DNA of 64,000 nucleotides from Paracholeplasma brassicae (GTDB taxonomy: Bacteria > Bacillota_I > Bacilli_A > Acholeplasmatales > UBA5453): NCBI RefSeq assembly GCF_000967915.1, contig NC_022549.1:186001-250000 (forward strand), in the 5' to 3' direction. A program made the position numbers and the translations under genes. This document shows, piece after piece, positions 46,107 to 60,296 of this stretch (within the stretch, counting starts at the first letter, position 1; every line of letters starts with the position of its first letter). The notes below the pieces were generated by a model, which had not been told where the DNA came from, did not search any database, and was given only the letters and a program-made list of their open reading frames with translations.

Positions 46107-47408
46107 ATGATTGAAAAAACAAAATGCCTTCCTGATGGCAAACACGAAAGAAAAAGCCAAGAAGTAATTCACTATTTAGAAGCAGACTTTTTGTATTACC
46201 CAACCACAGACCTAAGATGCCCTGCTGGGGAATCTTGTGTGATCGATGGACAATACGTTAAAGTCGGTGAACTCATTGGAACAAGAAAAGGTGCGTTTTT
46301 TGAGCAACCAATCCATTCCACTGTGTCAGGTTATGTTGTAGGTACTGAAAAGAAGATTCACAGCAGTGGTCAAACCGTTGACTGTATGATTGTTCAAAAC
46401 GACAAGAAGTATGTTTTACATGAGTCTTGTGTGCCAAGAACTGACGAGGATATTGAACAACTAAGCAAGGAAGATTACATAAAAATCATTAAAGATTCTG
46501 GATTGTCCGGACTTGGTGGTTCAGGCTTTCCAACCTATGTAAAACTCCAAACCAAAGAAACCATCCACACGGTGGTGGCTAATGGGGTTGAATGTGAACC
46601 ACATCTAATCTCAGACTACAAGTTAATTCTTGATAAAGCCAAAGAAATCGTTGAAGGTTTAACACTTTCAATGAGAGCCTTAGGAGCGACTAAAGGGGTT
46701 ATTGCAGTAAAAGCAAAATACCCAGAATTAGCTGGTGTATTCGAATCACAATTTGCAGAATTTTCGAAGTTTGATTTAGAAGTTAAAAGAGTTGGTAACT
46801 ACTACCCAGCAGGTTGGGAAGTTGAAACCATTAAATCATCTACAGGTATTTCAGTACCACCGGGTGAATTAACTGCTAAGTATGGCGTTGTTGTGTTTAA
46901 CGTTGCAACCCTATATGGTATGTACCGTGCGATTCGTAGAAACATTCCAATCACTGAACGTTTCTTCTCAATCTCAGGTGATGGGATTAAAGAATCGAAG
47001 AACTTTAGAGTTCGTATTGGAACACCAGTTCGTGATTTAATCGAAATGTGTGGTGGATACACAGAAAATGATAAACCAAAAGCGGTCATCGTTGGTGGAC
47101 CAATGATGGGTAATTCACTACAAAATGACGATTTAATCGTCACGAAGACTTGCACAAGTTTAATCGTATTTGATGAAAACGTCGTGGAATCTGAACCTTG
47201 TATTCACTGTGCGTCTTGTGTGTATTCTTGTCCAGTGAATATTCAACCAGTTCAAATCATGAACGCTTATAAAGAACGCGATAAAGAAGCAGTTGAAGCG
47301 TTAGGTGTAAATAAATGTATTGAATGCGGTCTTTGCTCATTCACATGTCCTTCTAAGATTCATTTAACAGAAACCATGAGACAAGCAAAACGATTCATTA
47401 GAAAATAA
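46107..47408 (+). CDS. rnfC: Rnf complex subunit RnfC
   Basis: Peripheral Fe-S/flavin subunit of the ion-translocating ferredoxin:NAD+ oxidoreductase. The N-terminal barrel-like region contains PIHSTVSGYV, and the NADH/FMN domain has SGLGGSGFPTYVKL. Two C-terminal [4Fe-4S] ferredoxin motifs are CIHCASCVYSCP (about residue 365) and CIECGLCSFTCP (about residue 405). The 433-residue length fits clostridial RnfC. First gene of rnfCDG-X-EA-Y-B, and 21 bases after glyA. Confidence 0.95.
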   Translation: MIEKTKCLPDGKHERKSQEVIHYLEADFLYYPTTDLRCPAGESCVIDGQYVKVGELIGTRKGAFFEQPIHSTVSGYVVGTEKKIHSSGQTVDCMIVQNDKKYVLHESCVPRTDEDIEQLSKEDYIKIIKDSGLSGLGGSGFPTYVKLQTKETIHTVVANGVECEPHLISDYKLILDKAKEIVEGLTLSMRALGATKGVIAVKAKYPELAGVFESQFAEFSKFDLEVKRVGNYYPAGWEVETIKSSTGISVPPGELTAKYGVVVFNVATLYGMYRAIRRNIPITERFFSISGDGIKESKNFRVRIGTPVRDLIEMCGGYTENDKPKAVIVGGPMMGNSLQNDDLIVTKTCTSLIVFDENVVESEPCIHCASCVYSCPVNIQPVQIMNAYKERDKEAVEALGVNKCIECGLCSFTCPSKIHLTETMRQAKRFIRK

Positions 47409-47421
47409 GGGGTAAGATTAT

Positions 47422-48498
47422 ATGAACTATGCGAAACAGACAAGTCCATACATCCGCAAAGAAACCAGTGTAAAACGCATGATGGTTGACGTGTTAATTG
47501 CCTTACTACCAGTGGTGGTATTCGCAATTTACCGTTTTGGATGGGATGCGATTATCAGAATTTTATTATCCGTGGTCATTATGGTGGTGGCTGAAGCCAT
47601 CGGTATGATGATGCGTGTGATGGTTCATCCATCAGTTAAAGGGTTTAAAAACCGCTTTAAAGCACGCTTTGAAAAATTAACCATTAATAACGTCACAGCG
47701 CCATTAGTGAGTGCGATCATCTTTGCGATGATTATTCCTTCGACCTTAAACCTATATGTGGTTGCGGTTGGGGCATTATTTGGGATTGTGGTTGCTAAGT
47801 TATTCTTTGGTGGGTTAGGCTCGAACATCTTTAACCCAGCAGCGATTGGTCGTGTGTTTATTGGGCTTTCATTTGCGAGCCAATTTAAATACGCAGGTAT
47901 TGACGCTGCCGTAGGGGCAACCCCACTTGGTGCGGTAAAAGATGCGATGTTAAACATCCCGACCGTTTTACAAGATTACAAACTAATTGATTTATTCTTA
48001 GGTAACATTCCAGGGTCAATGGGTGAAATCAGTGCGATTTTAATTCTCGTTGGTGCGACTTACTTATTCATTAGAAAAGCAGCTGACTTTAGAGTGACCT
48101 TATCTATGGTGTTATCATTTAGCGTGATTATCTTTATCGCAGCGATTGCACAAGGATCTAAGAACTTAGTAGAAACGACATTATTCCATGTGCTTGGTGG
48201 TGGGCTATTATTTGGGGCAGTCTTCATGATTACAGACCCAGTAACTTCACCATACACAAGACCTGGTCGTTGGATTTATGGGTTAATGGTCGGTGTCATT
48301 GCCGCATTCATCCGTTTGTTCGGTGCCTACCCAGAAGGTGTTGCGTTTGCGATTATCATTTCAAACATGTTTGTGGCATTACTTGATTACTACAAGTGGT
48401 CAACAAATAAATATTCATGGAAGTTTATCATTGGCTATGTTATTAGCTTAGCGGCCTTAGGCCTAGTTGCATTTATTGGGATGGGAGGTTTAAACTAA
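47422..48498 (+). CDS. rnfD: Rnf complex subunit RnfD
   Basis: Membrane subunit of 358 residues with about nine helices, homologous to NqrB. Family motifs include FGGLGSNIFNPAAIGRVF and DPVTSPYTRPGRWIYG. The site for covalent FMN is normally SGATPL; here it reads VGATPLG (residues near 165), keeping the acceptor Thr but not the leading Ser/Thr. Overlaps rnfG by one base. Confidence 0.95.
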   Translation: MNYAKQTSPYIRKETSVKRMMVDVLIALLPVVVFAIYRFGWDAIIRILLSVVIMVVAEAIGMMMRVMVHPSVKGFKNRFKARFEKLTINNVTAPLVSAIIFAMIIPSTLNLYVVAVGALFGIVVAKLFFGGLGSNIFNPAAIGRVFIGLSFASQFKYAGIDAAVGATPLGAVKDAMLNIPTVLQDYKLIDLFLGNIPGSMGEISAILILVGATYLFIRKAADFRVTLSMVLSFSVIIFIAAIAQGSKNLVETTLFHVLGGGLLFGAVFMITDPVTSPYTRPGRWIYGLMVGVIAAFIRLFGAYPEGVAFAIIISNMFVALLDYYKWSTNKYSWKFIIGYVISLAALGLVAFIGMGGLN

Positions 48499-49022
48499 TG
48501 AAAATATTTAAAACAGCGTTAGTTCTAACATTGGTTGGAATCGCGTGTGGCATTTTGATTGGTTTTTCCAACCAAATTACCGCACCAATCATTGCGAAAA
48601 ACAAGTTAGAAGCCGAATTAAAGGCGTATAAAGAAATATTTCCAACCATTGATGACCAAGAAGTTCTTGAGTACACATCAGACATCGTTTCAAAGGTGAT
48701 TGTGGCTAAAGAAGGTGGCAATGTGATTGGTTACTTAGTGATGGGTAAACAAGCCAACGGCTTTGGTTACATCGACATGATTGTTGGTTTTGATAAAGAT
48801 GGGACAATCGTTGGTATTGAAATCGTCGATTTCAATCAAACACCATCGTATCAAGCAGGTATTCTATCACGTACACTACAATTTGAAGGGACTGCTTTAG
48901 CGGATATTCCTGCAAAAGGACCACAAATTGATGCCAGTGTCGGTGGTACCTCTCAAGGGTTTAACACAGTAAAACTAATCGTAGCGGCAGCCGTTAGCGC
49001 GTATAATGAGGCGGTGAAATAA
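48498..49022 (+). CDS. rnfG: Rnf complex subunit RnfG (FMN-binding domain, unusual motif)
   Basis: A 174-residue protein with an N-terminal membrane helix and an extracytoplasmic FMN_bind domain (GYIDMIVGFDKDGTIVGIEI). The flavinylation motif expected as [ST]GATx[ST] reads VGGTSQG, and the ETPGLG segment reads QTPSYQ. The presumed FMN-accepting Thr is kept but its surroundings are not. Overlaps its neighbours by one base on each side, so it is tightly coupled in the rnf operon. Confidence 0.88.
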   Translation: MKIFKTALVLTLVGIACGILIGFSNQITAPIIAKNKLEAELKAYKEIFPTIDDQEVLEYTSDIVSKVIVAKEGGNVIGYLVMGKQANGFGYIDMIVGFDKDGTIVGIEIVDFNQTPSYQAGILSRTLQFEGTALADIPAKGPQIDASVGGTSQGFNTVKLIVAAAVSAYNEAVK

Positions 49023-50401
49023 TGAGTAGAGAAAATAGAGGATTACTAATCAACTTTGGTATACTACTGGTTGTTTCAATCAGCTTTATCCTAGGTTATG
49101 GTATTTTATATAAGAATTTAGATAAGAAAGACGCTTTAAAAGAATACCAAGTGTATTTTAGTGAAGCAACAGACTTTACTGAAGTGAGTGTAGATTCAAC
49201 GATTATTTCTAAAAAAGTTGAAATCAAAAAAGGATCTGATGTGATTGGTTACTACTTTGTTGGTAGCGAATACGCAGAAGGCATTCCTGGACACGATGGT
49301 AAAGACGAATTAAGAATTAGTGTGGTCATTGATAAATCAGGTAAGTTCATTAATATTCAAACGGAATATTCAGAACATACTGAAAGTTTTGTCAGCAAAT
49401 TAAACACATTCTATAATAACGCTAAAAACCAAAACATCGCCGATTTTAAAAACATCGATGGTGAGGCAGGGGCTTCGGCTTATTCGATGCCAGTGGTAGA
49501 AAAGGTCTTAACTGAGATTGCGAAAAACTTAGAGATCACAGTTAAACCAATGGTACCAAAAGACCCATACGTCTTAGTCTTTGGTGATTACGAAAGAAAA
49601 GAATTAGACAACGAATTTGAAGCAGATGATGTGTTATTATCAAGAGAATTAATTTATAACGACTTAAACCAAGTCATTGGTATCGCTTATGTGGGTACGG
49701 GTATCGCTAATGGCATTCCTTACCATGACGGACCGGCAAAACTTGACTTATTGGTCGGTTTATCAATTGATGGTAAGATTTTAGGCACAACCATCTTGGA
49801 ACACGAGCACACACAATCATTCGTAGACAAGATTTTACCTTACTTCACTAACTTAGTTGATGTCTCAATTGATGGCTTTGAAACAGTGGATTTAGTTGCG
49901 GGTGCAAGTGAGTTCACAATGCCTGTGGTTCAATCCATCTTAGCGAAGGTAAAAGAACGCTTTGAAGGGTTTGATGTCTATGCACACGTATCTAATGGGT
50001 ACGTCACGATTGAAGATGATGTCACATTTGTCGCAACGGATAAAGTTCTTGAAAAGAAAGTGCTTAAAGATTCTGAAGGGATCGTAACTGGGTATGTTTA
50101 TATCGGTACTGATGGTATCACGGGCATTCCAGGACACGACGGTAAAGACTATATCAAACTGGCTGTTGGTGTTGATTTAACAGGGAACATTACGGGTGTG
50201 TATTTAATTGAAAGTGCCCATACCGAAGGCTTTGTTAAACGTATTATTCCATATTTAAATACCTTGGAAGGGCAAGCGATTGCTTCCTACAAAACAACTT
50301 ACAATAATGGAACTACAGAAGTCGATGGATTCGCTAATGCAAGTGAGTATACGAAACCAGTAATCATCAGTATTTTAAATGCAATTAAGGGGGTGGCATA
50401 A
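49022..50401 (+). CDS. Membrane-anchored protein with three FMN-binding-like repeats
   Basis: A 459-residue protein with one N-terminal membrane helix (about 10-30) and three tandem extracytoplasmic repeats near 74-170, 216-316 and 355-456. Each repeat holds a GIPxHDG motif, a strand pair like that of RnfG, an H[ET]xxSF/HTEGF motif, and a motif at the flavinylation position: AGASAYSMPVV, AGASEFTMPVV, NASEYTKPVI. Ser replaces the usual flavin-accepting Thr. It lies between rnfG and rnfE with start-stop overlap to rnfG, where standard rnf operons have no gene. Likely an accessory electron carrier or structural duplicate of RnfG. Confidence 0.8.
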   Translation: MSRENRGLLINFGILLVVSISFILGYGILYKNLDKKDALKEYQVYFSEATDFTEVSVDSTIISKKVEIKKGSDVIGYYFVGSEYAEGIPGHDGKDELRISVVIDKSGKFINIQTEYSEHTESFVSKLNTFYNNAKNQNIADFKNIDGEAGASAYSMPVVEKVLTEIAKNLEITVKPMVPKDPYVLVFGDYERKELDNEFEADDVLLSRELIYNDLNQVIGIAYVGTGIANGIPYHDGPAKLDLLVGLSIDGKILGTTILEHEHTQSFVDKILPYFTNLVDVSIDGFETVDLVAGASEFTMPVVQSILAKVKERFEGFDVYAHVSNGYVTIEDDVTFVATDKVLEKKVLKDSEGIVTGYVYIGTDGITGIPGHDGKDYIKLAVGVDLTGNITGVYLIESAHTEGFVKRIIPYLNTLEGQAIASYKTTYNNGTTEVDGFANASEYTKPVIISILNAIKGVA

Positions 50402-50402
50402 C

Positions 50403-51083
50403 ATGTCTGAAACCGTAACTTTAAAGAAAAAAGACATCTTCATGACGGGTGTGTTAAAAGAAAATGCAACCTTCAAAATGATGTTAGGTATGTGTCCTGC
50501 CCTTGCGGTAACGAGTAGTTTTGAATCCGCATTTGGGATGGGCATTTTAGTTATCATCATTCTATCGTTTAGTAATGGGATTATTTCATTACTTAGAAAA
50601 TTAATTCCATCAGACGTGCGTATTCCTGCCTACATCGTTATTATTGCAACACTTGTAACGGCGTTAAAGATGTTTGTTGATGCGTACGCACCAGCGTTAG
50701 CATCAAGCTTAGGTGTGTTTATTGCGCTAATCGCGGTTAACTGTATTGTTTTAGGTAGAGCAGAATCGTTCGCTTCTAAGAATACCGTATTAAATTCAAT
50801 CGTTGATGGTCTTGGTAGTGCCACTGGGTTTACCTTATCGATCTCATTAATTGGTTTAGTTAGAGAAGTCTTAGGTAAGGGTAGTTTCTCATTTGGTGTG
50901 TTATTACCATTGCCATTTGAATTTACATGGCAAATTTTCCCAAGTGAATACGCTTGGAGCGTTCTTGTATCACCTCCGGGTGCTTTCTTAGTGATTGGTA
51001 TTTTATTAGCCGGGTTTACCGCTTATGGCCAACACATGGAACTTAAGAAGAAGTTAAATAAAGCGAAAGCGAGGGCTAAATAA
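50403..51083 (+). CDS. rnfE: Rnf complex subunit RnfE
   Basis: A 226-residue membrane protein with six helices, homologous to NqrD. Seen: KMMLGMCPALAVTSSFESAFGMG (with the conserved membrane cysteine in GMCPALA), LIAVNCIVLGRAESFASKN, and a LVSPPGAFLVIGIL segment. RnfA and RnfE form an antiparallel pair holding a membrane Fe-S site between CxxN-like cysteines. The start ATG 50403 directly follows the stop of the triple-repeat gene. Confidence 0.95.
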   Translation: MSETVTLKKKDIFMTGVLKENATFKMMLGMCPALAVTSSFESAFGMGILVIIILSFSNGIISLLRKLIPSDVRIPAYIVIIATLVTALKMFVDAYAPALASSLGVFIALIAVNCIVLGRAESFASKNTVLNSIVDGLGSATGFTLSISLIGLVREVLGKGSFSFGVLLPLPFEFTWQIFPSEYAWSVLVSPPGAFLVIGILLAGFTAYGQHMELKKKLNKAKARAK

Positions 51084-51664
51084 TGACCTTAGAAGTATTC
51101 TTTGTTTCACTGATTAGCTCGATGCTAATTCAAAACGTTATCTTAATGAAGTTCTTAGGGATTTGTTCATTCTTAGGTGTTTCTAAAAAGATGAGTAACG
51201 TTTGGGGTATGAGTGCGGCGGTTATGTTTGTTATGATGATCTCAACCGCAATTACTTACCCACTATACTTTTATGTATTAGAACCACTCAATGTTCAATA
51301 CATTGATACGATTGCGTTTATCTTAGTTATCGCAGCAGTGGTTCAATTAGTCGAAATGATTTTAAAGAAATACGTGGAAAGTTTATATCGTGGTTTAGGG
51401 GTTTTCTTACCACTGATTACAACGAACTGTGCGGTCTTAGGGGTTGCACAAACCAATATTTCAAGTGCGAACGGGTATTTAGATGCCTTAACCATCACCT
51501 TTGGGACAGCCCTAGGGTTTGGTTTAATCATCATTACATTTAGTGCGATCCGTATTCGTCTAGACTCAGCTAACGTGCCAAAAGCGTTTAAAGGTATGCC
51601 AATTGCGCTTGTGGTTGCTGGCTTAATGTCACTCGCATTCTTAGGTTTACAAGGGTTAATTTAA
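51083..51664 (+). CDS. rnfA: Rnf complex subunit RnfA
   Basis: A 193-residue membrane protein with six helices, homologous to NqrE. LISSMLIQNVILMKFLGICSF near the N-terminus (here quoted as LIQNVILMKFLGICSF) and LPLITTNCAVLGVA in the centre carry the conserved cysteines shared with RnfE. It overlaps rnfE by one base and the next small gene by one base. Confidence 0.95.
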   Translation: MTLEVFFVSLISSMLIQNVILMKFLGICSFLGVSKKMSNVWGMSAAVMFVMMISTAITYPLYFYVLEPLNVQYIDTIAFILVIAAVVQLVEMILKKYVESLYRGLGVFLPLITTNCAVLGVAQTNISSANGYLDALTITFGTALGFGLIIITFSAIRIRLDSANVPKAFKGMPIALVVAGLMSLAFLGLQGLI

Positions 51665-51873
51665 TGCCTAGCGAACTAATCGGTATTTTGATACTAGCAG
51701 TACTAGTATTCTTCTTTATCGTGATTACTTTAGTCAATAAAAAAACCCCAGTGCCACAAAGTTGTGAACATGCGTATCACGAAGCACAAGCTTCTGGGTG
51801 CGATGCGTGTGCAATTAGTGGTGGTTGTACAATAAGAGAAGCACTAGATAAAATAAAGGAGATCGGCAAATAA
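51664..51873 (+). CDS. Small cysteine-rich membrane protein in the rnf operon
   Basis: A 69-residue protein with one N-terminal membrane helix (about 5-25) and a short cytosolic-type tail containing four cysteines at 34, 46, 49 and 55 (C-x11-C-x2-C-x5-C, within CDACAISGGC). The spacing could bind an Fe-S cluster or zinc. It is locked between rnfA and rnfB by start-stop overlaps on both sides, so it is surely translated with the complex. I do not know it as a standard Rnf subunit. Small FeoB-associated Cys-rich proteins look superficially similar. Confidence 0.8.
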   Translation: MPSELIGILILAVLVFFFIVITLVNKKTPVPQSCEHAYHEAQASGCDACAISGGCTIREALDKIKEIGK

Positions 51874-52184
51874 TGTTAAATGCAACTTTAGTTATCGGTG
51901 GTCTAGGATTATTATTAGGACTAGGCTTAGCCTTAGCGGCTAAATACCTAGAAGTATTTGAAGATGAACGTATTGCAGAAGTAGAAAAGATGTTACCAAA
52001 CTACAACTGTGGTGCGTGTGGGACACCTGGGTGTCATGCGTTTGCTACTGAAATTGTGACCGGTAAAGCGGGTAAGATTTCAAGATGTAAACCAGGAAAA
52101 CCAGACAAACATTATAACCCAATTTTAGAGTACTTAAAGAACCATCCAAATCCAGATGGCACACCAGTAGACATCAAATTATAA
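51873..52184 (+). CDS. rnfB: Short RnfB (membrane helix and single Fe-S domain only)
   Basis: A 103-residue protein matching only the N-terminal part of RnfB. It has one membrane helix (about 4-23) and the four-cysteine cluster domain NCGACGTPGC ... C (Cys 46, 49, 54, 72). Usual RnfB proteins are about 190-330 residues and carry two or more ferredoxin-type [4Fe-4S] clusters after this domain; none is present. The stop is followed by a clear terminator and no continuation in another frame is apparent, so this looks like a genuine short form rather than a frameshift. Confidence 0.88.
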   Translation: MLNATLVIGGLGLLLGLGLALAAKYLEVFEDERIAEVEKMLPNYNCGACGTPGCHAFATEIVTGKAGKISRCKPGKPDKHYNPILEYLKNHPNPDGTPVDIKL

Positions 52185-52220: not shown

Positions 52221-52371
52221 ACGCTTTAGAGGGCACATCAAACATGGATTTTCAAACCATCTTAAGTATCTTTATTTACACATAATTGGGCATTGTAAGT
52301 GTTTTTAATGAAAACTGGGGTGTTTTTGATTATTATATATGATATAATACGAAATGGAAATGAGCGATAAT

Positions 52372-53598
52372 ATGAAAAAAATAATGGGAATGATTTTAGG
52401 ACTTGCACTACTTTCAGGTGCGTTCTTTAAAGTAAATGTTTATGCAAGTGATGAGCCTTTGGTAAGGTCTATGACCGATTATATGTACACGAGTATTACC
52501 GTGACACTATATAACGCAACCATTGAAGATTTAAATGAGATTGAAAAAATCTATCAAGAGTACACAATTATATCAAATAATTTCAATTTTAAGGACGACG
52601 ATTTTGATGAGGTTAATGACTACTTAAGTAACCCTTTTTATGGACAAACAAGTATTTATGACGTCAATCAGAAAGCGTTTGATGAACCAGTCGTCGTTAG
52701 TCAAAAATTGTTTGACTTACTCTTAGAAGCTAAAGCGCTCTATTTAGAGACCAATGGCTATTTTGATGTCTCGATTGGTAGGGCCGTTGATTTAATCAAA
52801 CAAGGCATTACCTCTTTTGGTTACGATGAGATGCCTAAGGCAGATTTTGATCAATTAATGAATGACATTGATGCGCTTGGTCGTGTGACCTTTAGTGAAG
52901 TCATACTAAATGAAACAAATCTTACGGTTCGATTTACGAATGAAAATGTGAAACTTGATCTAGGGGCACTTGCGAAAGGCTATGCCACACAAAAGGCAGT
53001 TGACTATTTAGAAGAACAAGGCATTACAACTTATATGATTAACGCAGGAAGTTCAAATATTGCGGTAGGCAAACACCCGGAAAATAGAAACTGGCGTTTA
53101 GGCTTAAGACACCCGGTGAATCCGATGTTAGGCTTATACGCGGTGGTTTCAAATACCGATAAGGCGATTGTTACCTCAGGGAATTTTGAACAATTCTTCA
53201 CTTATGATGAGATTAGATACCATCACATCATCTCACCTAAGGATTACTTACCAAAACAGTACTATCACGCAGTAACACTCATCGGTGATGACTCGGGTCA
53301 TTTGGATGGGTTATCAACCGCTATCTTTAATATGCCTTTTGATGAGGCAAAGGCGGTCGTTGAAAATTTAGGCATTGAAGCAATCTTTTTTATGTACGAT
53401 GGTAAGATTAATACGATGCTTGAGGATACTGAAGTCGAGCTTAGGGTAGAAGAAGAAACCGAATCAAGACCAAACGACGTTGAGTCGATTGCCTACATTC
53501 TAGGTGGGGTCGTGATTGTTGGTGGTATCATTATCGTTTTACTATCAATCAACGAAAAGAAAAAAGGTGCTAATTATGACAAAGAAAAAGAAGAATGA
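52372..53598 (+). CDS. apbE: FAD:protein FMN transferase (ApbE-like), membrane-anchored
   Basis: Transfers FMN from FAD onto Thr/Ser of Rnf/Nqr and other extracytoplasmic flavoproteins. A signal sequence (KIMGMILGLALLSGAFF) is followed by the ApbE domain with LFDLLLEAKALYLETNGYFD, VKLDLGALAKGYATQKAVDYL (21 residues, core DLGALAKGYA) and INAGSSNIAVG. The C-terminus adds a second membrane helix (YILGGVVIVGGIIIVLLSI), unlike the plain lipoprotein form. The start ATG 52372 begins the signal peptide; two earlier in-frame ATGs are less well placed. It leads a three-gene unit next to the rnf operon. Confidence 0.92.
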   Translation: MKKIMGMILGLALLSGAFFKVNVYASDEPLVRSMTDYMYTSITVTLYNATIEDLNEIEKIYQEYTIISNNFNFKDDDFDEVNDYLSNPFYGQTSIYDVNQKAFDEPVVVSQKLFDLLLEAKALYLETNGYFDVSIGRAVDLIKQGITSFGYDEMPKADFDQLMNDIDALGRVTFSEVILNETNLTVRFTNENVKLDLGALAKGYATQKAVDYLEEQGITTYMINAGSSNIAVGKHPENRNWRLGLRHPVNPMLGLYAVVSNTDKAIVTSGNFEQFFTYDEIRYHHIISPKDYLPKQYYHAVTLIGDDSGHLDGLSTAIFNMPFDEAKAVVENLGIEAIFFMYDGKINTMLEDTEVELRVEEETESRPNDVESIAYILGGVVIVGGIIIVLLSINEKKKGANYDKEKEE

Positions 53599-54058
53599 TT
53601 TTTTGTTGATTGGCGTTGCCTTAATTCTACTCGGAGGCCTGTTAATTTTTAGTATCGCAACTAGAGTTAAAGGCGAAATTGCTTATGTGAAGGTTTCGAA
53701 TCAAGCGGTGATGCAAATCTCATTAAAGGATGGGTCATACGTAGCAAATAACCCATCAAACGTGATTGTTTTAACCGAAAAACCTGAAATTGATGGGTTT
53801 GACTTAACCACTTCAAGCGAGGTAATTCTACTCGAGTTTGGAAAAACAATTGTGGTGTATCAAAACCTCTTTTATGTCAGAGGGGCACTTGGCGTGGTTG
53901 AAATTCAGTATAAAGAAAATAAAATCAGAGTTAGTAAGGAAAAGAGTCCTTATAATATTTGTAGTAGACAAGGTTATTCGGATGTCGCACCGATCGTTTG
54001 TTTACCTAATTTTATCACCATAGAATTTAGTAACGATACGGATGTGATCATTGGATGA
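53576..54058 (+). CDS. NusG domain II-containing membrane protein
   Basis: 160 residues with an N-terminal membrane helix (about 7-26) and one extracytoplasmic beta domain. The C-terminal part contains SPYNICSRQGYSD and VCLPNFITIEF, a pattern I associate with NusG_II-type proteins often found beside ApbE and Rnf-like genes. Two cysteines flank that segment. ATG 53576 lies inside the end of apbE, and the gene overlaps the next by four bases. Its role in flavin or redox trafficking is inferred from neighbours. Confidence 0.75.
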   Translation: MTKKKKNDFLLIGVALILLGGLLIFSIATRVKGEIAYVKVSNQAVMQISLKDGSYVANNPSNVIVLTEKPEIDGFDLTTSSEVILLEFGKTIVVYQNLFYVRGALGVVEIQYKENKIRVSKEKSPYNICSRQGYSDVAPIVCLPNFITIEFSNDTDVIIG

Positions 54059-54561
54059 GTATAAAAAAATTGGTGCTGCTTGCAATCTTTACAGCGATTG
54101 CCGTGGTCGTAAATATCTTAGAAATGTATATTCCGATTATTCCTGGAACGGCATTCAAAATTGGGTTTGCGAATATCATTACACTCATCGTGGTTTTTGT
54201 ATATTCTCCAAAAGAAGCAATCATTGTGGGCTTAATGCGCATCTTTGTTGCAGGTCTTCTTGGGCCATCAGGGTTTGGACCAACCTTTATGCTTAGCTTA
54301 ACGGGTGGGGTGTTTTCAATCCTTACGATTGTCATATTTAGAATGCTTGATAAATTTTCACTAATTGGTGTTTCTGTGTTAGGCTCAATCATGCACGTCT
54401 TTGGTCAAATTCTTGCCGCAAGGTTTATTTTTGCGGAAGTTGTGACATTTTATGCACCGATCATGCTGTTTCTAAGTATTCCTGCGGGCATATTTACAGG
54501 GATTTTAGCAAATAAGTTTTTAGCCATTTCAAAAGAGTGGTTTGTGGAAAAGAAATATTAA
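54055..54561 (+). CDS. Gx transporter family protein (ECF S-component-like)
   Basis: A 168-residue integral membrane protein with five to six helices. LAIFTAIAVVVNILEMYIP, FKIGFANIITLI, RIFVAGLLGPSGFGPTFML and LSLTGGVFS match the Gx transporter/heptaprenyl-diphosphate-synthase-component-I-like family. Such proteins commonly co-occur with ApbE, and by analogy with Listeria extracellular electron transfer may move FAD or flavin across the membrane for ApbE. ATGA overlap with the preceding gene. Confidence 0.8.
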   Translation: MSIKKLVLLAIFTAIAVVVNILEMYIPIIPGTAFKIGFANIITLIVVFVYSPKEAIIVGLMRIFVAGLLGPSGFGPTFMLSLTGGVFSILTIVIFRMLDKFSLIGVSVLGSIMHVFGQILAARFIFAEVVTFYAPIMLFLSIPAGIFTGILANKFLAISKEWFVEKKY

Positions 54562-56489: not shown

Positions 56490-57404
56490 ATGAATGAAAA
56501 AATGCCAAGCCACTTAGCGGTTTTAAACAATCGTAATTTGGTCATTATGATTGGTGCGCTATTGGTTATTTTACTTGGGGCGACCTTTATCTTTGGGGCC
56601 TATAGTTTGTTAATCGCAGGGGTTGCGATTGTCTTTAGTGGGTGCGTTGAGTTAATATTTGCGAAAACGAGAAAAAAAGGTCTCGATTATAGCATATTAA
56701 TCACACCTCTTATTTTTGCGTTAACGATGCCACCATCGGTCCCACTTTGGGTGGTTGCGATCGGTGCGAGCTTCGGGACTTTTTTTGCAAAAAGTTTATT
56801 TGGTGGTTTGGGTAAAAACATCTTTAACCCAGCCATGGTCGGTTATATTTTTGTTACAATCTCGTTTCCAAGGTATTTAAACACACAGTGGTTAAACCCA
56901 AAAACCGATGTGATTGGGAGTGTGACCCCATTAATTGGTTTAAATGGTGGTAATCTTAGTGAATCTTATATGGATTTATTGTTGGGTGTTGTGCCTGGAT
57001 CACTAGGGGAGACGTTTCGTATTGGTATTCTAATTATAGGGCTTCTCTTAGTCGTTCTAAAAATTGTGGACTGGCGTATTCCGGTCTCAATTCTAGGTAC
57101 GGTATTTATCGTTAATTTGATTGGAAATCAGTTGAATGAAACCTATTTTAGTGACCCGGTCGCATCTTTACTAGTCGGTAGTGTGCTTTTCGGTAGTTTC
57201 TTTGTCGCAAGTGACCCAGTATCGATGCCGGTTTCTAACTGGGCGAAAGTAATTTATGGCATTGGGATTGCGGCAATCATCTTAATTATTCGTGGTAACC
57301 CTGGCGCATACCCAGCCGGCATGGCGTTTTCTGTGGTGATTATGAATGCGTTTAGTCCGTTAATTGATTCATACTTTATTAAAGAAGCGGGTGAGCTTGT
57401 ATGA
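56490..57404 (+). CDS. NqrB/RnfD-like membrane subunit
   Basis: A 304-residue membrane protein with about eight or nine helices, related to RnfD and NqrB. FGGLGKNIFNPAMVGYIFV and ASDPVSMPVSNWAKVIYGIG are family segments. It is shorter than NqrB (about 410). The FMN site, usually SGATPL, reads GSVTPLIG. First gene of a five-gene set whose order B-C-D-E-F is that of nqr, but no nqrA precedes it. Preceding gap holds the SRP RNA, its terminator and this promoter. Confidence 0.88.
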   Translation: MNEKMPSHLAVLNNRNLVIMIGALLVILLGATFIFGAYSLLIAGVAIVFSGCVELIFAKTRKKGLDYSILITPLIFALTMPPSVPLWVVAIGASFGTFFAKSLFGGLGKNIFNPAMVGYIFVTISFPRYLNTQWLNPKTDVIGSVTPLIGLNGGNLSESYMDLLLGVVPGSLGETFRIGILIIGLLLVVLKIVDWRIPVSILGTVFIVNLIGNQLNETYFSDPVASLLVGSVLFGSFFVASDPVSMPVSNWAKVIYGIGIAAIILIIRGNPGAYPAGMAFSVVIMNAFSPLIDSYFIKEAGELV

Positions 57405-57994
57405 GACAATACATCAACATGTTAGTGTTTGTTGTGATTTTGGGGTCCGTGGTTTCTTTCTTACTTGTTGGGGCGGATTTGCTGACCAAAGACCGAATCG
57501 CAAGAAATGACGAAGCGTTATTAAAGAGTTCGATTTTAGATGCTTATGACATCAGTTATAGTTTTAATACGGTGTTTGAACGTTTTGATGAAACGGTTGA
57601 AGAAGTGGTTATTGAAGACACAACGTTTTATATTGATAAAGAAACAAACCGTGTGTCCTACATTTTCAAAGGTTCCGGGGTTTGGGGGCCAATCGAAGCG
57701 ATTATGACGCTTGAGGCGGATTTTAAAACAATCGTTTCAATTTCAATTTTAGCGCAAGAAGAAACACCTGGTCTTGGTGGTGTGTTGGCTGAGGCTTGGT
57801 ATTTAGAAAAATACAGTGGGACTGTACTTTCTGATCAAAGTCCCTACATTATTATCAGACATGGGAATGAGGATAATCTACCAAATGAAGTCGATGCGAT
57901 TACAGGCGGAACAAGAACCTCTGAAGCTTTTATGAAGATGGTTAATGAAACCTACCCGATGTATAAGACGTTATTTGAAAGTAGAGGTAATTAA
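57401..57994 (+). CDS. NqrC/RnfG-like flavinylated subunit
   Basis: 197 residues with an N-terminal membrane helix and an extracytoplasmic FMN_bind domain. GSGVWGPIEAIMTLE and the EETPGLGG motif are present, and the flavinylation site reads DAITGGTRTS, close to the consensus [ST]GATx[ST] with Gly for Ala. It therefore probably carries covalent FMN placed by the ApbE protein at 52.4 kb. ATGA-type overlap with the preceding gene. Confidence 0.9.
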   Translation: MRQYINMLVFVVILGSVVSFLLVGADLLTKDRIARNDEALLKSSILDAYDISYSFNTVFERFDETVEEVVIEDTTFYIDKETNRVSYIFKGSGVWGPIEAIMTLEADFKTIVSISILAQEETPGLGGVLAEAWYLEKYSGTVLSDQSPYIIIRHGNEDNLPNEVDAITGGTRTSEAFMKMVNETYPMYKTLFESRGN

Positions 57995-57995
57995 G

Positions 57996-58622
57996 ATGAA
58001 ATGGATTCGTATTAAATACACTAAAACCTATAACCTCTTAAAGGACGGGCTTGCCACAAGTAATCCAATTGTGATTGCCGTCTTAGGGATTTGTTCCTCA
58101 CTTGCGGTATCAAACAAGGTTGAAAACGCGATCGCGATGGGTCTAGGTGTGACCTTTGTTGTGATGGCCTCAAGCATGCTCATTTCAAGTATGAGAAGTA
58201 TTATTCCAGCCAAAGTTCGAATGGTGACTTACATGGTGGTCATTTCGACGTTTGTGATTATGTTTCAAATGTTTCTAGATGCGTACTTTCCAACGATTGC
58301 CAAAAGCTTAGCGGCTTACGTCGGTTTGATCATCACCAATTGTATTGTGATGGGTAGAGCTGAGGCGTTTGCGGTTAAAAACCCAGTCAAGTATTCCATA
58401 GTTGATGGGTTTGCTTCAGGTATGGGTTATATGTTCATACTGGTTGTTGTTGCAATCATCAGAGAAGCCTTAGCGTTTGGAACCATCTTAAACATGAGGG
58501 TCATGCCTTTAAGTTTTACGAATTGGTCTGTCATGGCCTTAGCGCCTGGTGGGTTCTTTGTGATGGCGCTCTTCATTTGGGGCATTCGAGAATGGCTTAA
58601 GTATTACGAAAGTGAGGTGTAA
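57996..58622 (+). CDS. NqrD/RnfE-like membrane subunit
   Basis: 208-residue membrane protein with six helices. Seen: NPIVIAVLGICSSLAVSNKVENA with the conserved helix cysteine (LGICSSLA), and GLIITNCIVMGRAEAFAVKN. Homologous to RnfE at 50.4 kb but clearly diverged, so it is a second complex rather than a recent duplicate. The start ATG 57996 follows the NqrC-like stop by one base. Confidence 0.93.
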   Translation: MKWIRIKYTKTYNLLKDGLATSNPIVIAVLGICSSLAVSNKVENAIAMGLGVTFVVMASSMLISSMRSIIPAKVRMVTYMVVISTFVIMFQMFLDAYFPTIAKSLAAYVGLIITNCIVMGRAEAFAVKNPVKYSIVDGFASGMGYMFILVVVAIIREALAFGTILNMRVMPLSFTNWSVMALAPGGFFVMALFIWGIREWLKYYESEV

Positions 58623-58625
58623 TTT

Positions 58626-59207
58626 GTGAGTAATCTAATTGAACTTTTTGTTGCAACGATATTAAATCACAACATTGCACTGGTCTACATTTTAGGGATG
58701 TGTCCATTAATTGCTATTTCGACGAACGTGAAAAATGCCAAAGGGATGGGGATTGCGGTTGTTTTGGTTGTTACCTTAACGGCAATGATCAACTACCCGA
58801 TTTATCAATTATTAAAACAAACCGAAACAACGAGTTTAGCACTGTTGGTTTTCATTATTACGATTGCGGCAACCGTGCAAGTCTTAGAGATGTTAATGGA
58901 TAAGTATTTACCTAAACTCTATAACGCGTTTGGTATTTATTTACCACTAATTACCGTAAACTGTGTGGTCTTAGCGGTATCATTGTTCTTTGTTAACCGT
59001 ACGTATAATTTTGCGGAAACCACGGTGTTTTCGTTTGGATCGAGCGTTGGTTGGATGCTAGCGATCGTTTTAGTTGCTGGCATTCGAGAAAAAATGGCGA
59101 AGCACAGTGATGTACCAAGAGGTTTAAAAGGCAAAGGGATTGTCTTTGTCATCTTGGGCATCTTAGCGTTAGCGTTTATTGGATTTACTGGCTTAGCTAG
59201 TATATAA
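58626..59207 (+). CDS. NqrE/RnfA-like membrane subunit
   Basis: 193-residue membrane protein with six helices. NIALVYILGMCPLIAISTNV near the N-terminus and LPLITVNCVVLAVS in the middle hold the conserved cysteines. The GTG start at 58626 is set by GAGGTG at 58614-58619. Partner of the NqrD-like subunit. Confidence 0.93.
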   Translation: MSNLIELFVATILNHNIALVYILGMCPLIAISTNVKNAKGMGIAVVLVVTLTAMINYPIYQLLKQTETTSLALLVFIITIAATVQVLEMLMDKYLPKLYNAFGIYLPLITVNCVVLAVSLFFVNRTYNFAETTVFSFGSSVGWMLAIVLVAGIREKMAKHSDVPRGLKGKGIVFVILGILALAFIGFTGLASI

Positions 59208-59219
59208 GGAGGATATTCT

Positions 59220-60296
59220 ATGAATCCGTTTGTACCGATTATATTGATTGGTGGTTTAATACTCATTACCCTCTTTTTAATTGTCATTGATAAACTACTT
59301 GGTGGTGGCAAAGAAAAGATGTTACTTGTCAATGAGGATACCATCATACCTGTAAAAAATGAAGATACGTTATTAAATACGTTATCGAATCAAAAAATCT
59401 ACATTCCTTCAGCGTGCGGAGGAAAAGCGACGTGTGGGTTTTGTAAGTTTCGACTCATTGAAGGTGGTGGTGAGGTTAAACCAACCGAACTACCATTTCT
59501 ATCCAAAGAAGAAAGAGATTTAGGCATTCGTTTGTCTTGCCAAGTAAAAGTCAAGGACGACATGAAAATTGAAATCCCAAAGGAGTTACTGCACGCGAAG
59601 GCTTACCAAACGAAAGTCGTTGAAATCATTGAGCAAACCTATGACATCAAATTGGTTCGGTTTAAATTAATTGACCCGGACAAAATGGAATTTAAACCGG
59701 GTCAATACGCACAAATTAAAGTCCCCGGCATTGATGTGATTCGGGCTTACTCAATCGCATCTAACCCAAAAGACACATCAGAAATCGAGTTGATTATTAG
59801 ACAAGTGCCTAACGGTAAAGCAACAACGTTTGTCCATAAAGCCTTACAAGTAGGCGATAAAATCACACTGACGGGGCCCTATGGTGATTTTTATTTAAGA
59901 GACAGTGGTAGAGAAATGATTTGTATCGCTGGTGGCTCAGGTAAAGCACCAATTAGAAGTATCCTATATTACTTAAAAGACCGCGGCATGACGCGTAAAG
60001 TCACTTATTTCTTTGGGGCGAAATCCAAAAGAGATCTCTATATGACCGAAGAATTCGAACAGTTAATGACTGAATTTCCAAACTTTACTTACGTGCCAGC
60101 TCTATCAGAACCGCTTGAAGAAGACAATTGGAAGGGTGAGGTTGGTTTAATTACCGACGTTGTTGATAGACACACCGATGATCTAAGTGAAGCAGAAGCC
60201 TATTTGTGCGGCTCACCAGGGATGATTAACGCCTGTAACAAAGTCTTAAGTAAACACAAAATTAAAGAACACAACGTTTTCTTTGATAAGTTTTAA
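59220..60296 (+). CDS. NqrF-like NADH dehydrogenase subunit (2Fe-2S plus FAD)
   Basis: 358 residues: an N-terminal membrane helix (about 5-26), a plant-type [2Fe-2S] domain with cysteines 66, 72, 75 and 107 (SACGGKATCGFC, LSCQV), then a ferredoxin-reductase module. The latter has FAD motif RAYSIASNP, NAD-binding AGGSGKAPIRS and the C-terminal CGSPGM. This is the NADH-oxidising subunit of Na+-NQR, which distinguishes this set from an Rnf complex. Strong AAGGAGG site. A terminator follows. Confidence 0.94.
   Translation: MNPFVPIILIGGLILITLFLIVIDKLLGGGKEKMLLVNEDTIIPVKNEDTLLNTLSNQKIYIPSACGGKATCGFCKFRLIEGGGEVKPTELPFLSKEERDLGIRLSCQVKVKDDMKIEIPKELLHAKAYQTKVVEIIEQTYDIKLVRFKLIDPDKMEFKPGQYAQIKVPGIDVIRAYSIASNPKDTSEIELIIRQVPNGKATTFVHKALQVGDKITLTGPYGDFYLRDSGREMICIAGGSGKAPIRSILYYLKDRGMTRKVTYFFGAKSKRDLYMTEEFEQLMTEFPNFTYVPALSEPLEEDNWKGEVGLITDVVDRHTDDLSEAEAYLCGSPGMINACNKVLSKHKIKEHNVFFDKF

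Follow-up and report, generated by a model that had tools for sequence, protein, structure and literature searches.

The rnf cluster and the FMN3 gene

The window (the whole stretch of Paracholeplasma brassicae DNA that was analysed, 64,000 nucleotides) carries an rnf cluster in which an RnfG paralogue with three FMN_bind domains, called FMN3 here, is encoded between rnfG and rnfE. The genome is a single contig of 1,877,792 bases. The features of the cluster are as follows.

46107..47408, + strand: rnfC (TIGR01945 over cut-off)
47422..48498, + strand: rnfD, with flavinylation-type motif DAAVGATP at 47902-47925
48498..49022, + strand: rnfG, one FMN_bind domain, with motif DASVGGT at 48930-48950
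49022..50401, + strand: FMN3, membrane-anchored triple FMN_bind protein, RnfG paralogue, 459 aa, ATG start
49028..49156, + strand: N-terminal helix of FMN3 (residues 3-45 in the model, hydrophobic part ~5-33), membrane anchor
49139..49534, + strand: FMN_bind domain 1 (residues ~40-171); GIPGHDG at 49280 (residue 87), HTESF at 49376 (119), DGEAGAS at 49457 (DGEAGASAYS, 146); putative acceptor S152
49562..49972, + strand: FMN_bind domain 2 (residues ~181-317); GIPYHDG at 49712 (residue 231), HTQSF at 49808 (263), DLVAGAS at 49889 (DLVAGASEFT, 290); putative acceptor S296
49976..50398, + strand: FMN_bind domain 3 (residues ~319-459); GIPGHDG at 50123 (residue 368), HTEGF at 50219 (400), DGFANAS at 50324 (DGFANASEYT, 435); putative acceptor S441
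50403..51083, + strand: rnfE, likely start 50403
51083..51664, + strand: rnfA
51664..51873, + strand: CysS, 69 aa, one hydrophobic helix followed by four conserved Cys, weak likeness to FeoB-associated Cys-rich protein
51873..52184, + strand: short rnfB, 103 aa, membrane helix and single 4-Cys FeS domain (PF04060), without the C-terminal Fer4 cluster domain
52354..53598, + strand: apbE
53570..54058, + strand: NusG_II-domain protein, kept in the cluster
54055..54561, + strand: ECF S-like membrane protein (below cut-off), kept in the cluster after apbE

The stop codon of rnfG and the start of FMN3 overlap in TAATG, and the FMN3 stop codon (TAA, 50399-50401) is separated by one base from an ATG at 50403. 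This ATG lies behind AAGGGGGTGG and is a likelier start for rnfE than the 50379 of the mechanical ORF list. Start-stop coupling of FMN3 to both neighbours, as in the original prediction, is thus borne out, and the ORF is real, with all of the predicted GIPxHDG, HT[EQ]xF and flavinylation-type motifs located in its three RnfG-like repeats. A frameshifted or misassembled rnfG was rejected as an explanation, because FMN3 begins with a start codon of its own, the preceding stop overlaps it, the protein carries a membrane helix, and relatives share this second gene. Named relatives in a protein search with FMN3 include Paracholeplasma vituli.

RnfB (51873-52184) lacks the C-terminal cluster domain that serves for ferredoxin docking in the Rnf complexes studied. 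Among order loci, wherever rnfB was identified, it has this short form (94-129 aa), as it does in most of a class panel, and the short RnfB may be more surprising than FMN3 itself. CysS (51664-51873), between rnfA and rnfB, is present in most order loci and many class loci, belongs to no confident family, and is a candidate for a factor that inserts Fe-S clusters or for an additional electron-transfer component. A likeness of CysS to NqrM was considered and rejected, with no DUF539 and only weak FeoB_associated hits among the matches listed. The ECF S-like protein may be involved in flavin trafficking, for which the Listeria system (PMC9973259) serves as a comparison. An NQR-like cluster, BCDEF, is found at 56490-60296 without nqrA, and there is no NQRA_N match in the genome. 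NqrBCDEF has been noted earlier in a mollicute genome paper (PMC6256511).

FMN_bind domains and putative flavin sites of FMN3

The Pfam FMN_bind model (PF04205) matches FMN3 with 32.2 bits (gathering cut-off 22), with two stretches passing. With profiles built from the domains of relatives, excluding window sequence, repeats 1, 2 and 3 score 72, 93 and 77 bits, and all three are still matched by profiles made only from relatives' first RnfG domains (24-30 bits) or from the class panel of single-domain RnfG (17-28 bits). The best of 500 shuffled controls reach 11.0, 6.8 and 8.4 bits. A broad alignment proved too divergent to support a degenerate scan, and a PDB sequence search with the single FMN3 protein returned chance matches only. 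Against the RnfG model TIGR01947, FMN3 scores 16 bits, below the curated cut-off of 102, as is the window's own rnfG (57.1).

An AlphaFold2 model of FMN3 was made from 13 sequences, with a mean pLDDT of 81.9 and a pTM of 0.46, the latter too low for flavin-flavin distances or sheet pairing of domains to be read from it. In VIA-align comparisons of this model, the helix plus domain 1 aligns with Clostridium tetanomorphum RnfG (7zc6_G; Z 13.0, 163 aligned, rmsd 6.3), domain 2 with holo NqrC (4xa7; Z 10.3, 126 aligned, rmsd 2.4) and domain 3 with RnfG 8ahx_G (Z 10.7, 133 aligned, rmsd 2.9). Domain 1 of CbFMN4, a covalent FMN protein, gives Z 8.7, and the four Foldseek matches at E < 0.001 are all RnfG chains. 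The fold on which the original prediction depended is therefore present, with domains 1-3 aligning to solved RnfG or NqrC at Z 10-13, and for all three domains it is well supported. The part of FMN3 that is C-terminal to the helix is predicted to lie outside the cell.

The canonical ApbE motif is D-x-x-[S/T]-G-A-[S/T], with FMN transferred onto the last residue (PMC12052999). In FMN3 the Asp, the second Ala and the acceptor Ser are conserved in all three motifs (DGEAGAS, DLVAGAS and DGFANAS), Ala takes the [S/T] position in 3/3, and domain 3 has Asn in place of the motif Gly. RnfD (DAAVGAT) and RnfG (DASVGGT) of this genome likewise depart from [S/T] at this position. The flavins of RnfD and RnfG are part of the known Rnf mechanism. 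Since the same relaxation is found in these two proteins it is probably tolerated in FMN3, and the missing [S/T] need not mean that the flavin is absent. In a model protein, replacing the motif Gly with Ala lowers flavinylation, and Ser is a poorer acceptor than Thr; thus domain 3, with Ser as acceptor and Asn for Gly, may be flavinylated partly or not at all.

An acceptor Ser/Thr and an HT or QT dipeptide are present in nearly every FMN_bind domain across the order. The HT of HT[EQ]xF aligns with the ET of NqrC's ETPG, and in CbFMN4 the Thr at the corresponding place contacts the flavin N5, suggesting from the alignment that the FMN3 Thr is its equivalent. The apbE of the cluster encodes the only flavin transferase found in the genome. 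FMN3 is therefore probably flavinylated.

The gene pair in relatives and exchange between its domains

The original prediction took the place between rnfG and rnfE to be empty in known rnf operons. This was wrong: a homologous gene is common in relatives, and multi-flavinylated RnfGs have been published (PMC8238504). A second FMN_bind gene is often found at this site in the order. The order-wide arrangement is rnfC-rnfD-rnfG-(FMN3 homologue)-rnfE-rnfA-CysS-short rnfB, commonly followed by apbE, the NusG_II protein and the ECF-S-like protein. The first 20 loci were picked by a match to FMN3, which biases the frequency of the second gene; in a second set, picked by rnfE, more than one FMN_bind domain is found between rnfD and rnfE in 11/20 loci and one in 9/20.

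The division of domains between rnfG and the next gene is variable. It is 1+3 in the window, and most commonly 2+2 elsewhere. Other splits are 2+3 (L040, L048), 3+2 (L043, L046), 2+1 (L049, L054-L056) and 1+2 (L110), and single genes carry three (L045, L108) or four domains (L098). In two loci (L101, L102) RnfG is 1353 and 1423 aa long; ten profile segments match in each, and as these include fragments the number of FMN_bind domains is roughly 7-10. Across the wider class panel, one-domain rnfG genes are in the majority, and in some clusters an additional flavin-domain gene lies between rnfD and rnfG instead. Since a one-domain RnfG is all that many relatives in the order possess, the flavin array is not needed for Rnf as such. 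The cluster of L048 (G042), with its 2+3 domains, is divergent; rnfB and CysS were not found there, and the genome has no PF04060 match.

In the domain tree, most proximal (first) domains are split from distal domains at 94/94. Domain 1 of FMN3 groups with first domains of FMN3 homologues, and domains 2 and 3 fall among the distal ones. Many relatives show the greatest similarity of the rnfG distal domain to its distal counterpart in the adjacent gene of that genome. The identity of such distal pairs is 93% at the protein and 95% at the DNA level in L042, and at the protein level 82% in L044, 78% in L038 and 73% in L039; first-domain pairs of the two genes are at most 43% identical. A single clade for the distal domains of second genes is rejected (AU test, p-AU 2.6e-5; 12 state changes). 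We read this sequence pattern as repeated copying between neighbouring genes, that is, as apparent concerted evolution of the distal domains. In the window, domains 2 and 3 are 39% identical and do not show such homogenisation at present. Homogenised distal and distinct proximal domains are the pattern expected if distal domains are interchangeable relay units, and repeated homogenisation between neighbours is thus an evolutionary argument for exchangeable relay modules. Tentatively, and with more doubt than confidence, mollicute Rnf might be seen as a tunable outward electron exporter, in which RnfG and its paralogue share copied distal flavin domains and the relay length (one to roughly ten) evolves fast while the proximal docking domains stay fixed.

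Proposed electron path and relation to known systems

In Rnf, electrons pass from RnfB through the RnfA/E cluster to the outside flavin of RnfG, and return through RnfD to RnfC and NAD+ (PMC11889175, PMC12174285). We propose, with a probability of about 0.6, that FMN3 is a flavinylated RnfG paralogue that passes electrons from Rnf to an extracellular acceptor. One N-terminal helix would hold FMN3 in the membrane with its three FMN_bind domains outside the cell, and the downstream ApbE would attach FMN to S152, S296 and, perhaps to a lesser extent, S441. The RnfG flavin would then hand electrons to FMN3, presumably docked to Rnf, as a branch off the normal return through RnfD and RnfC, and the FMN3 flavins would relay them to an outside acceptor such as Fe(III), O2 or soluble flavin. 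In this way, a wall-less cell could shed electrons while the Rnf pump keeps working. The extracytoplasmic flavin chain of the original prediction fits the acceptor Ser/Thr, the flavin-contact Thr, the sole apbE in the cluster and the published multi-flavinylated class; of its parts, flavinylation and outward flow are predicted.

An electron donor for Rnf exists, since pyruvate:ferredoxin oxidoreductase and small ferredoxin-like frames are encoded in the genome. An extracellular sink is plausible given that no NqrA was found and that a related mollicute is without respiratory quinones (PMC11122141). No terminal acceptor or partner reductase for FMN3 was identified. A weak FMN_bind match elsewhere in the genome (L005), in an ORF that reads like an FAD-dependent oxidoreductase, was judged to be chance and rejected as a terminal reductase. 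A search of open papers for a link of the Acholeplasma membrane NADH oxidase to Rnf yielded nothing usable.

FMN3 could instead be flavinylated without forming a wire to Rnf, acting close to the membrane as a terminal enzyme or electron store that reacts directly with O2 or soluble acceptors. Because mollicutes lack a cell wall, they have less need for long-distance transfer. The published three-FMN protein SaFMN3 is flavinylated, has a single redox potential (-184 mV) and consumes O2 once reduced (PMC10339131), a precedent that also fits the relay from Rnf. A terminal or storage role overlaps with an electron relay, and alone it would leave unexplained the fixed place in the rnf operon and the distal-domain exchange with RnfG; we consider it rather improbable.

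It is quite unlikely that FMN3 is a non-flavinylated scaffold or assembly factor in which the FMN_bind fold is kept as structure only, the alternative that the original prediction had allowed. The departures from Dxx[ST]GA[ST] (Ala in all three motifs, Asn for Gly in the third) and the absence of the acceptor from domains of a few relatives (L045 G2) are in its favour. However, nearly all domains, across divergent genomes, retain the acceptor Ser/Thr and the flavin-contact Thr, and the [S/T] relaxation is shared by RnfD and RnfG of this genome. We give equally little credence to FMN3 replacing RnfG at the Rnf core, for example under other redox conditions; domain 1 would then dock onto RnfD and RnfA/E. 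The full-length alignment of the helix and domain 1 to RnfG of solved complexes would suit such a replacement, as would the grouping of the second gene's first domain with RnfG proximal domains in some relatives, but a normal rnfG is still in the operon, and the first domains of FMN3 and its closest homologues fall outside the RnfG proximal group.

The preferred reading, a relay from Rnf to an outside acceptor, can be set beside several known proteins. Multi-flavinylated proteins are common, and their roles have been described as enigmatic. With an ion pump as neighbour, a single apbE, no NqrA found and a probably culturable organism, FMN3 makes an outward Rnf electron drain testable in a small wall-less cell. 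Like RnfG (TIGR01947) and NqrC, it has a membrane helix and the FMN_bind fold with the acceptor at the same place; RnfG, however, has one domain and sits within the U-shaped Rnf electron path, whereas FMN3 has three and falls short of the cut-off of the RnfG model. SaFMN3 and CbFMN4 (Tong et al. 2023, PMC10339131) have three and four covalent-FMN domains of similar fold, but their repeats are >80% identical and about 85 aa long, compared with 33-39% and about 140 aa in FMN3, which is encoded in an rnf operon. FMN-bind2 proteins (Huang et al. 2024, PMC10979944), of which an Erysipelotrichaceae example has been modelled, carry multiple copies of a larger FMN_bind domain, often in even numbers with predicted sheet-to-sheet pairing, whereas FMN3 has three; their domains are ~160 aa with insertions forming the pairing face, against ~140 aa in FMN3, a comparison of length only.

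The closest likeness is to the multi-flavinylated RnfGs of RNF clusters, for which a second path to extracytosolic acceptors has been proposed (Meheust et al. 2021, eLife, PMC8238504). FMN3 has the features of the multi-flavinylated extracytosolic class, with three domains, one N-terminal hydrophobic helix and a predicted outward orientation. Both cases have several FMN_bind domains encoded in the rnf cluster; however, in those described by Meheust et al. RnfG itself carries the extra domains, whereas here they belong to a separate anchored paralogue after a one-domain RnfG, with the split varying among relatives. FMN3 fits the second-path proposal as a separate anchored protein. The multi-flavin class is already published, and the separate three-domain paralogue with its 1+3 split is the variant seen here.
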